Part shown: positions 22,610 through 51,536 of the stretch, piece by piece
Position numbering within the stretch: the stretch's first letter is position 1
Layout: every line of letters begins with the position of its first letter
IMG/VR virus record: IMGVR_UViG_3300022932_000004
Span: 1-51,536 of that record
Strand: one strand, 5' to 3'
Length of the DNA: 51,536 bases
From: a virus
Made by a program: the position numbers and the translations under genes
The notes under the pieces: model-generated
What the model saw: the letters and a program-made list of their open reading frames with translations, nothing else
Databases searched by the model: none
Told to the model about the DNA's origin: nothing

Positions 22610-23095
22610 ATGAACGACGACGAGCCTTTGAGCGAAAAGATGTGGAATCCTCGCAAATCAAGTAAAAAGAATAAGCATAAAACCGAATACAGACCGCCAA
22701 AAGTAAAGAAGCGTAAACACGTGCCGTCAGAAATGGAGTTTTTAATCAGCATGCATCTTGAATTGTTGGGCGTAGAATATAAAACGGAACATAAGTTAAT
22801 CGGTCTTGTATCGCCTCATTCCGGTTCTTGGCTAAGCTGTGACTTCTACGTCGGCAAGTATCCACTTATCATTGAGTACGACGGGATGCAACACTTCTTT
22901 AGGATGTCAAATGATAGGCATTACGATGATTTAAACAAGCGTAGGCTGAACGATAAAGCGAAAGACCTGTACTGCATTCAGAATAACATTACGATGCTTA
23001 GGATTAGCGTCTACCAACGGGCGCATTACAGGGAGATTATTAACGAGTGTATAGATAAATTAGAATGCAACAAGAATTATACTAAAAGCACATAA
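22610..23095 (+). CDS. Vsr/PD-(D/E)XK-like endonuclease, probably homing type
   Basis: A 161-residue protein. A basic N-terminal region (residues about 14-37, rich in K/R) precedes the nuclease core: an acidic residue in SEMEFLISMHLELLG, Asp in SWLSCDFYVG, then LIIEYDGMQHF and a DKAKDLYCIQNNITMLRIS segment. This is the layout of very-short-patch-repair-like nucleases, including the EDxHD class of phage homing endonucleases. It would cut DNA at a specific site. It lies immediately upstream of an RNA element and a GIY-YIG gene, so two types of selfish nuclease are adjacent. Confidence 0.65.
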   Translation: MNDDEPLSEKMWNPRKSSKKNKHKTEYRPPKVKKRKHVPSEMEFLISMHLELLGVEYKTEHKLIGLVSPHSGSWLSCDFYVGKYPLIIEYDGMQHFFRMSNDRHYDDLNKRRLNDKAKDLYCIQNNITMLRISVYQRAHYREIINECIDKLECNKNYTKST

Positions 23096-23115: not shown

Positions 23116-23234
23116 TATCTTTACCACGTAATTGGTAGCATTCGAACTCGAACCGATTTAAAGAAATTTACAGGCGCTAACCTTAGCAAGTACCGAGTTC
23201 GAATGCGGGAAAGTTGAGGTTAACGCCTTTTTTA
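23116..23234 (+). ncRNA. Structured pseudoknot RNA upstream of GIY-YIG gene (copy 1)
   Basis: A promoter-like TATCTTTA (23116-23123) precedes TAATTGGTAG. Helix A is a perfect 13 base pairs: 23138-23150 with 23194-23206. Helix B pairs GGCGCTAACCT (23173-23183) with AGGTTAACGCC (23217-23227), 10 of 11, and is followed by six Ts. B's 5' arm is inside the loop of A and its 3' arm is outside, so the two form an H-type pseudoknot or compete. B plus the T-run looks like a terminator 5 bases before the ATG at 23239. Copy 2 (48800-48914) keeps both helices with compensating changes. Confidence 0.75.
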
Positions 23235-23238
23235 TTAT

Positions 23239-24066
23239 ATGGCAACAGAAAAAATTTGTGGGATATATATTATTCACTCCCCAACAGATAGAATATATAT
23301 TGGACAGTCGAGAGATATTATGAGAAGATTTAAGTCTTATTTATGCGGAAGCTCAAAAACCAAAGGACAACCCAAGTTGCATAATTCATTTGTAAAGCAT
23401 GGGGTTGAAAATCACTTTTTTACCGTATTAGAGGAATGTGAATTGCTTCAATTGAATATCAGGGAACGTTTTTGGCAAGACGAGCATAACGCTATTGGCG
23501 ACATGGGGTTAAATTGCAGGCTAACAGAAACAGATTTAGTTCCGGCTATAACAAGTGAAGAAACGAGAAAAAAGCTTTCAGAAGCAGCAGCGAAAAGAAT
23601 GTCCATATTGCTTAACGATCCTGAATACAAAAAGACAATGCGAATTGCTTATGACAAAAGAATAGGGGTTAAATTAAGACCAAAAACAGACGAAGAAAAA
23701 GAGTCGATTAGAAAAACAGTTACCGCGTATGGCGGTTGGAAAGGCGAAAAGAACCCCTTCTATGGCAAAGACAGGAGTGGAGAAAAGAACACCATGTACG
23801 GTAAAATTCAAAGCGAAGAAGCTCGAGAAAAAATAAGGCAAAAAGCTTTAGGAAGAAAACATACTGATAGCGCAAAATCCTTAATGTCTGCTAAAAGATC
23901 GCTAGGTAATAATATACATGCGAAGCTGGTCTTTAACGAGGAAACTGGGATTTTTTATACCTCAGGAAAGGAGGCCTGGATGGCTATAGGTTATGGAGCA
24001 TACCCTACAATGAAGTCCAAATTAAACGGAGATAATCCGAATAAAACATCATATAGGTATGTATAA
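23239..24066 (+). CDS. GIY-YIG homing endonuclease with NUMOD repeats
   Basis: 275 residues. The GIY-YIG nuclease domain occupies residues about 6-95: GIY at 8-10, YIG at 20-22, Arg29-30, and the NIRERFWQDEH segment. NUMOD3-like DNA-binding repeats follow (GEKNPFYGKD, GEKNTMYGK, near residues 170-195), then SEEAREKIRQKALGRKHTD and a C-terminal DNA-binding tail (FYTSGKEAWMAIGYGA). It should nick or cut DNA to spread its own gene. Free-standing: no split host gene is visible. A structured RNA precedes it and a strong terminator follows. Confidence 0.9.
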   Translation: MATEKICGIYIIHSPTDRIYIGQSRDIMRRFKSYLCGSSKTKGQPKLHNSFVKHGVENHFFTVLEECELLQLNIRERFWQDEHNAIGDMGLNCRLTETDLVPAITSEETRKKLSEAAAKRMSILLNDPEYKKTMRIAYDKRIGVKLRPKTDEEKESIRKTVTAYGGWKGEKNPFYGKDRSGEKNTMYGKIQSEEAREKIRQKALGRKHTDSAKSLMSAKRSLGNNIHAKLVFNEETGIFYTSGKEAWMAIGYGAYPTMKSKLNGDNPNKTSYRYV

Positions 24067-48799: not shown

Positions 48800-48914
48800 T
48801 ATATTTATATTGTAATTGGTAGTCTTCGAATTTAAACCGATTTAAAAACATTATTACCCTTATCTCATTGAGTAACGAGTTCGAAGACGTGAAAGGTGGG
48901 ATAAGGGTTTTTAT
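48800..48914 (+). ncRNA. Structured pseudoknot RNA upstream of GIY-YIG gene (copy 2)
   Basis: TATATTTA (48800-48807) lies 5 bases before TAATTGG, the same spacing as in copy 1. Helix A: GTCTTCGAATTT (48822-48833) with GAGTTCGAAGAC (48877-48888), 12 pairs including two wobbles. Helix B: ACCCTTATCTC (48856-48866) with GGGATAAGGGT (48898-48908), 11 pairs, then TTTTT. The ATG at 48917 follows at once. Constant blocks shared with copy 1 are TAATTGGTAG, ACCGATTTAAA, CGAGTTCGAA and GAAAG. Helix B has different bases but stays paired. Confidence 0.75.
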
Positions 48915-48916
48915 TT

Positions 48917-49453
48917 ATGATAGGAATTTATAGAATAACGTCTCCGTCAAACAAGGTTTACATAGGGCAAAGCAGCAATATAGAGACAAGATTTAAAACA
49001 TATAAATACAACGCATGCAAAGGTCAGCCTAGGCTATTCAATTCTTTTAAGAAATACGGATTTGAAACCCACAAACTGGAAGTCATAGAGCGGTGTGCGA
49101 TTGACAAATTAAATATTAGAGAAAGATATTGGCAAGATTTCCATGACTCTACTAATAAAGGATTAAACTGCATGTCTGTAAAAACAGAATTGATAAATGG
49201 GAGTCATTGCAATACGACTAAATTAAAAATAAGCCAAACCAAGATGGGCGTTCCTAGCAAATTAAAAGGCAGAAAAATGCTGAAAAAAGCATATAACCCA
49301 AGGATAAACGGACGCCTTGTTCTTAATACTGAAAATGGGATATATTATTCTAGTGTAGTGCAAGCGGCGCATGCGTTTTGCTTAAACAGGACTACTTTAG
49401 ACGCTATGCTTAGAGGCAGAAGAAGGAACAAAACACAAATGAAACTAGCATAG
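48917..49453 (+). CDS. GIY-YIG homing endonuclease, shorter copy
   Basis: 178 residues. GIY at 3-5, YIG at 15-17, Arg25, and LNIRERYWQDFHD are shared with the 275-residue enzyme at 23239. It lacks the NUMOD3 repeats and goes on to a NUMOD1-like C-terminus (VLNTENGIYYSSVVQAAHAF) with basic tail RRRNKTQMK. A free-standing DNA-cutting selfish gene. It probably moved together with its RNA element, which is related to the one before 23239. Confidence 0.88.
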   Translation: MIGIYRITSPSNKVYIGQSSNIETRFKTYKYNACKGQPRLFNSFKKYGFETHKLEVIERCAIDKLNIRERYWQDFHDSTNKGLNCMSVKTELINGSHCNTTKLKISQTKMGVPSKLKGRKMLKKAYNPRINGRLVLNTENGIYYSSVVQAAHAFCLNRTTLDAMLRGRRRNKTQMKLA

Positions 49454-51057: not shown

Positions 51058-51204
51058 TATATTTGTGTATTGTTTACCTTTGGACGGGCGAACGAAAGAA
51101 TAAAACAGCTCATAATATTTTAAATGGGTTAGTAGATTTAAAGTAATACCAAAGCCCCGTCCAAAGGAATACAGGTATTATTTAAGTTTGCTAACCCATT
51201 TTTA
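51058..51204 (+). ncRNA. Stand-alone structured RNA with pseudoknot topology
   Basis: TATATTTG (51058-51065) starts the element. Helix A: CCTTTGGACGGG (51077-51088) with CCCGTCCAAAGG (51156-51167), 12 perfect pairs. Helix B: AAATGGGTTAG (51122-51132) with CTAACCCATTT (51191-51201), 11 perfect pairs, followed by TTAG in a T-rich run. Inside B, AGTAATACC pairs with GGTATTATT (9 pairs, one wobble). A and B interleave as a pseudoknot. No gene follows in this direction for about 1.9 kb across the circle join, so the RNA may act by itself. Confidence 0.65.
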
Positions 51205-51409
51205 GTTTGGACAATTCTACTTGATATTTATTTCTGACAACGACCTAGACAAAGGCGTTTGTAAAAGTTGCACTTATATCTCTCCGGTATTTGGAACGTG
51301 TACATTTAACTATGGTTAAGAATAAAGATTGTTTTTCTAGGGGGAGTCTTTTTCTTTCCTTTCTTCTTTTCCTTATTTTCTTATGGTTGTTTTATTCCTT
51401 TTCTTCTTT
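51205..51409. other. Non-coding tail of the genome with a pyrimidine-rich tract
   Basis: From 51221 to 51319 a TTG-started frame reads IFISDNDLDKGVCKSC then TYISPVFGTCTFNYG, a Cys-containing fragment that may be a gene remnant. From about 51340 to 51415 the + strand is almost pure T/C. No convincing gene; the hydrophobic frame that crosses the tract is probably an artefact of the T-richness. Confidence 0.4.
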
Positions 51410-51536
51410 CCTTTCTTTTAAGCTGTTTAAAACAAAACCCCACGGTTTCACAACGGCGGGGCTTCTCAAACAGAAATACATATTTTGATTGATCTGACGG
51501 ATTTACTTATTAAACGGGTTGTACTTTCTTCTGATT
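51410..51536. repeat. Terminal duplication, right copy
   Basis: Identical to bases 1-127. It holds the same terminator-like hairpin and the beginning of the reverse-strand end of the membrane protein gene at 94-441. Should be removed before circular numbering. Confidence 0.9.

Follow-up and report, generated by a model that had tools for sequence, protein, structure and literature searches.

Does the long structured RNA that precedes a GIY-YIG homing-endonuclease gene in this phage belong to the nuclease, or is it a control element that the gene shares with others? The window analyzed here is the whole of a 51,536-nt virus record, and a preliminary description of its sequence had placed two long interleaved helices (of 13 and 10–11 pairs in the first copy) upstream of each of two GIY-YIG genes and had taken RNA and gene to travel as one mobile unit. 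The window carries Caudoviricetes-type terminase, portal, and capsid genes, and its first and last 127 nt (1–127 and 51410–51536) are identical; it is therefore probably a complete phage genome, written with an overlap or with terminal redundancy. Judged by the GIY-YIG protein, the nearest named relative is Flavobacterium phage FL-1, whose own GIY-YIG relative is without the RNA.

Detection and Architecture of the RNA

The whole window was scanned for interleaved helices, with six dinucleotide shuffles of the genome as control. The structures upstream of the two GIY-YIG genes ranked second (copy 1, score 64) and third (copy 2, score 54), so that both pseudoknots are confirmed and only one structure in the genome outscores them; that one (76) lies at 51070–51201, near the terminal repeat, and is absent from the preliminary description. 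The shuffled genomes gave maxima of 49–55, against which copy 2 alone would not stand out. With the stem of hairpin 1 (see below) scored too, copy 1 reached 77.5 and copy 2 66.5, and when 813 kb of related sequence was shuffled and scored with this stem counted, one match reached 58 and none 60.

Copies 1 and 2 with their GIY-YIG genes and the third RNA all lie on the plus strand. Copy 1 opens with the −7 box-like sequence TATCTTTA (23116–23123), which differs from the sigma-A consensus TAnnTTTG in having A at the last position. Hairpin 1 (P1, 23130–23158) is formed by pairing of AATTGGT (23130–23136) with ACCGATT (23152–23158) and holds in its loop the 5′ strand of the kissing helix, K5, GCATTCGAACTCG (23138–23150). 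An A-rich linker (23159–23172), which in other members contains AAAAACATTA, leads to the terminator-like hairpin 2 (23173–23227), where helix B (23173–23183/23217–23227) encloses the 3′ kissing strand, K3, CGAGTTCGAATGC (23194–23206). The kissing helix (23138–23150/23194–23206), which is helix A of the preliminary description, has 13 pairs, and helix B has 10 of 11 with one C–A mismatch. As had been noted, a U-run (23228–23233) follows helix B just before the start codon, an ATG at 23239. The next gene (23239–24066) encodes a 275-residue GIY-YIG (PF01541 above cut-off) homing endonuclease with NUMOD3, and the GIY, YIG, R, E, and N positions are present in it and invariant across the aligned family. 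Directly 5′ of copy 1, at 22610–23095, is a second homing-endonuclease-like gene (phrog_9084, phrog_559); the two genes are neighbors and adjoin the capsid gene.

Copy 2 repeats this arrangement, with a −7 box-like TATATTTA (48800–48807), hairpin 1 at 48814–48842 (48814–48820 paired with 48836–48842), and hairpin 2 at 48856–48908. Its kissing helix (48822–48833/48877–48888, each strand in the loop of its hairpin) has 12 pairs, some of them G–U, and its helix B (48856–48866/48898–48908) has 11; the U-run extends to 48912, and an ATG at 48917 begins a 178-residue GIY-YIG homing endonuclease (48917–49453, PF01541 above cut-off). The catalytic positions of the GIY-YIG domain are invariant in alignment A2 of the nuclease family, and by these features the genes of copies 1 and 2 both classify as free-standing GIY-YIG homing endonucleases. 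The third RNA (51070–51203), the strongest pseudoknot in the genome, follows a −7 box TATATTTG (51058–51065) and consists of P1 (51070–51075/51090–51095), a kissing helix of 12 pairs (51077–51088/51156–51167), a helix B that spans 51122–51142/51181–51201 and longer, and a short U-run. No GIY-YIG or other nuclease gene lies 3′ of it, only a 32-residue ORF with a TTG start (51221–51319).

The conserved blocks flanking the kissing strand had been described as single-stranded, and this reading was rejected: AATTGGT and ACCGATT pair with each other in copies 1 and 2 alike. Because the flanking blocks pair, the RNA is predicted to be a pair of hairpins held together by a helix between their loops (a kissing helix), in the order hairpin 1 with K5 in its loop, A-rich linker, hairpin 2 with K3 in its loop, U-run, and ATG. 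Helix B often encloses a short inner stem, P3, and the A-rich linker is the best-conserved unpaired part of the RNA. Minimum-free-energy folds, which are blind to the kissing helix, yield both hairpins unaided in most members.

Covariation in Two Subfamilies

The compensatory changes between copies 1 and 2 are as previously described. To these we added pair counts on alignments, with slid alignments as the control. Subfamily A5 was aligned by sequence without help from the structure (n = 7; L023, L027, L120, L157, L167, L171, and L188); 98.4% of its pair cells are paired, compared with 34–52% in the slid controls, and 10 pairs have changed on both sides, including 4 of the 7 in the kissing helix, where CTGGTAC/GTACCAG, CTGCAAC/GTTGCAG, CTGGTCC/GGACCAG, CTAGTCC/GGACTAG, and CTTGCCC/GGGCAAG are found. 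Subfamily A6, likewise sequence-aligned (n = 7) and drawn from upstream of HNH, T5orf172, and GIY-YIG genes, is 93.6% paired, versus 36–51% in its controls, with 12 doubly changed pairs. The structure to be counted was picked from these same sequences, a bias that the slid controls remove in part, but it does not account for the double changes. A wider alignment, A4 (25 members), was put into register manually from the structure, with the loops trimmed and N used as padding; its helices being hand-chosen, its pair counts are circular and not independent evidence, and it served only to build a covariance model, R1. The related Moomin phages hold identical copies of the RNA and add no covariation. 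The earlier proposal of a functional, covarying RNA directly upstream of the two free-standing GIY-YIG genes is supported.

Genes Downstream of the RNA

Relatives of both nucleases were gathered from viral contigs. A first count gave an interleaved structure scoring at least 36 for 23 of 120 GIY-YIG ORFs, against 1.0 expected. A detector for the kissing architecture gave scores of at least 46 to 18 of 121 GIY-YIG ORFs (0.67 expected from shuffles) and to 13 of 1900 other ORFs (2.3 expected), most of the latter being clear members, which precede HNH/NUMOD4, T5orf172, EndoVII-like HNH, DUF6291, primase, and small phage genes. These counts are approximate in that weak and probably false calls such as L011, L034, and L092 are included and the genuine L037 and L113 are missed. 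Since only these 18 of 121 reach the threshold, most GIY-YIG relatives are without the RNA, and this, together with its presence at other ORFs, leaves the notion of RNA and GIY-YIG gene as a single mobile unit unsupported.

Model R1 describes the nested helices only, with the kissing helix left out, and it is weak: a crAss001 segment scored 25.7 bits, above copy 1 (24.6 bits) and copy 2 (21 bits). For this reason matches were accepted only if the kissing helix was also present. The further copies that R1 found in the records of known members do hold the kissing helix absent from the model. These copies precede an HNH/NUMOD4 gene, a T5orf172/MUG113 gene, DUF6291 genes, a DUF3987/Prim-Pol gene, and an EndoVII-type HNH-like gene assigned by looking at its sequence, which has no Pfam match. 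Among cultured phages, the detector placed the RNA before a small gene adjoining the DUF6291 replication gene in elemoA, tooticki6-1, and phage 11b, directly upstream of the HNH endonuclease gp32 in tooticki6-1, and upstream of an unannotated gene in FL-1. By eye the RNA is probably present in Harreka_1 as well and, in a weaker form, before the DUF6291 gene of Cellulophaga phi19:3 and phi13:2. The DUF6291 gene of the window phage is present, but lacks a kissing-hairpin leader.

Searches for the conserved blocks as DNA patterns were uninformative, as a strict exact pattern found no match in the viral contigs and the 15 matches of a relaxed one were rejected as chance, the structure being absent. 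A genome search around a MAG with a match led to a phylum of small genomes and yielded nothing convincing.

The leaders of homing-endonuclease genes fall within the same sequence subfamilies as those of replication genes. L040, the leader of a GIY-YIG gene, shares its sequence type with the replication-gene leaders of tooticki6-1 and L200, as does the GIY-YIG leader L197/L151 with that of phage 11b; the RNA therefore moves between genes, or genes between RNAs. Because several unrelated nuclease types and replication genes carry it, the leader RNA is, by its distribution, a shared control element, not the private partner of one nuclease. Its ancestral place was probably the replication-gene leader, which homing-endonuclease genes of several families would then have taken over.

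−7 Box, U-run, and Proposed Mechanism

Of 34 curated members, 30 have a box TAnnTTT[GA] whose end is 1–7 nt, mostly 4–5 nt, from the start of hairpin 1. The Flavobacterium sigma-A box TAnnTTTG spans −12 to −5 (PMC9723704), and with the spacing seen here transcription should therefore start at the base of hairpin 1 or right beside it. At the other end, the 8 nt after helix B have a T fraction of 0.78 in the 34 members, compared with 0.32 in the window. The distance from helix B to the ATG varies from 5 to 48 nt across members, whereas the U-run is always directly behind the helix, so that a stem followed at once by a U-run, as in an intrinsic terminator, is present throughout. The constant U-run and varying ATG distance therefore favor attenuation over masking of the ribosome-binding site. 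Kissing sequences differ between copies within one genome, which favors pairing within one molecule.

We thus tentatively favor, at somewhat less than even confidence, a new family of leader RNA that acts in cis in flavobacterial phages, most likely by attenuating transcription, and that homing-endonuclease genes have taken over. A sigma-A promoter would start the RNA so that its 5′ end falls in hairpin 1. Hairpins 1 and 2 would pair through their loops, and hairpin 2 with its U-run would act as an intrinsic terminator in front of the gene. Most transcripts would then stop after about 70–130 nt. Controlled read-through would give expression of the downstream gene, and the kissing helix would determine how readily the terminator hairpin forms. 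The covariation, the position of the −7 box, the U-run, and the range of genes are observed, and from them we infer promoter use, termination, read-through, and a regulator. By covariation and folding all helices are compatible and no mutually exclusive antiterminator pairing was seen; a switch, if there is one, would therefore have to be a protein or folding kinetics. Further observations speak against the attenuator: copies 1 and 2 have TATCTTTA and TATATTTA and not TAnnTTTG, one T4-like subfamily (L023 and others) is without the box, and the window phage's own DUF6291 gene has no leader of this kind. A broader proposal, which we regard as possible but doubtful, is that promoter and kissing-hairpin terminator form a phage-wide module that makes a regulon of the replication genes in flavobacterial phages, and that at least four nuclease types of homing endonuclease have each acquired it for expression in step with replication.

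The arrangement resembles the intrinsic-terminator attenuators of bacterial leaders in its succession of promoter, structured leader, stem with U-run, and ORF. It differs from them in that covariation and folding revealed no alternative antiterminator helix, and in that the loop of the terminator is tied to the 5′-terminal hairpin through the kissing helix.

Control of translation or mRNA stability is an unlikely alternative, though one to be taken seriously. The message would be closed at its 5′ end by hairpin 1, which does start at the predicted +1, and the kissing structure by the AUG would hinder or time ribosome entry or protect the message, with the U-run incidental. In the homing-endonuclease copies helix B mostly ends 6–14 nt before the AUG, but in replication leaders the distance rises to 41–48 nt, and the constant feature is the U-run. 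A precedent exists in the T4-type leaders of I-TevI, segB, and mobE, in which early transcripts have their Shine-Dalgarno site masked by a hairpin that also contains a late promoter (PMC2988022); there too RNA structure immediately 5′ of homing-endonuclease genes in phages likely keeps expression low or timed. Those leaders, however, work through the internal late promoter and the Shine-Dalgarno site, and neither is seen here: the box lies 5′ of hairpin 1, and no Shine-Dalgarno-like site occurs between helix B and the ATG in copies 1 and 2. The kissing helix, the U-run, and the occurrence before non-nuclease genes set the present RNA further apart.

More improbable is that the element is an independent trans-acting small RNA of about 70–130 nt, with the downstream gene served by leak-through from it. 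The unit is complete for such a role, having a −7 box, hairpins at both ends, and a U-run; the third RNA, at 51.07 kb, is not followed by any clear gene, and the best-conserved unpaired part is the A-rich linker. Yet almost every other known member immediately precedes an ORF (in part because ORF starts were searched), there is no conserved seed, and the kissing loops pair with each other, no outside target having been found.

The nascent hairpins might instead bind RNA polymerase to give read-through of later terminators in the operon, which we consider very improbable. Two hairpins directly after the promoters of phage replication genes recall the HK022 put RNA, a nascent two-hairpin element right after early phage promoters (PMC9378689). 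Put suppresses termination and is not known to have a U-run terminator of its own, whereas the element here finishes with a terminator-like helix followed by a U-run; no conserved polymerase-contact sequence was seen.

The HEARO/omega RNA, partner of IscB, lies directly upstream of a nuclease ORF in mobile elements. A corresponding role here as guide or cofactor moving with the GIY-YIG gene, the partnership raised in the preliminary description, fits the position of the RNA before GIY-YIG genes far above chance and its lack of an Rfam match, but is largely refuted and barely credible, given that most GIY-YIG relatives do without the RNA, that the same subfamily precedes unrelated genes (DUF6291, primase, HNH, and T5orf172 genes, replication genes included) and so does not go with a single nuclease family, and that no guide-like variable single-stranded segment is present.

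Relation to Described RNA Families

The Rfam check proposed earlier was run: Rfam 15 gave no match at the gathering cut-off in the window, and permissive searches of copy 1 and the third RNA gave chance-level matches only, those of the third RNA to RT-17 and microRNA families being rejected as driven by its long stem. Among 12 related loci there was one match, away from the elements, to the DUF805b RNA (RF02914, 38 bits; L203:2238–2270, minus strand), which on its phage contig occupies the interval separating a GIY-YIG ORF from the gene that follows. This RNA is likewise a cis-regulatory candidate of Bacteroidota, known but unexplained, with one copy on the same contig as a kissing-hairpin element; it differs in sequence, is a single small hairpin, and does not overlap the elements.

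No earlier description of the kissing-hairpin RNA was found in the open-access literature searched. It would be a new structured RNA family with good support, from phages whose hosts form a poorly studied group without standard Shine-Dalgarno and promoter signals, and its presence in cultured phages makes it testable at once. It would also offer a concrete explanation of why the expression of selfish homing-endonuclease genes stays harmless, namely by borrowing of the phage's own leader RNA.

Two other arrangements were seen upstream of GIY-YIG matches. In L044, L046, L054, L055, and L060 a different long hairpin surrounds a TATTTATTAT motif, which may be a late promoter, and the hairpin reaches into or near the start codon. 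In L007, L011, L016, L020, L022, and L029 a plain terminator hairpin is followed by a promoter box close to the ATG, an arrangement that apparently gives leaderless genes and so another way to insulate the same type of nuclease.
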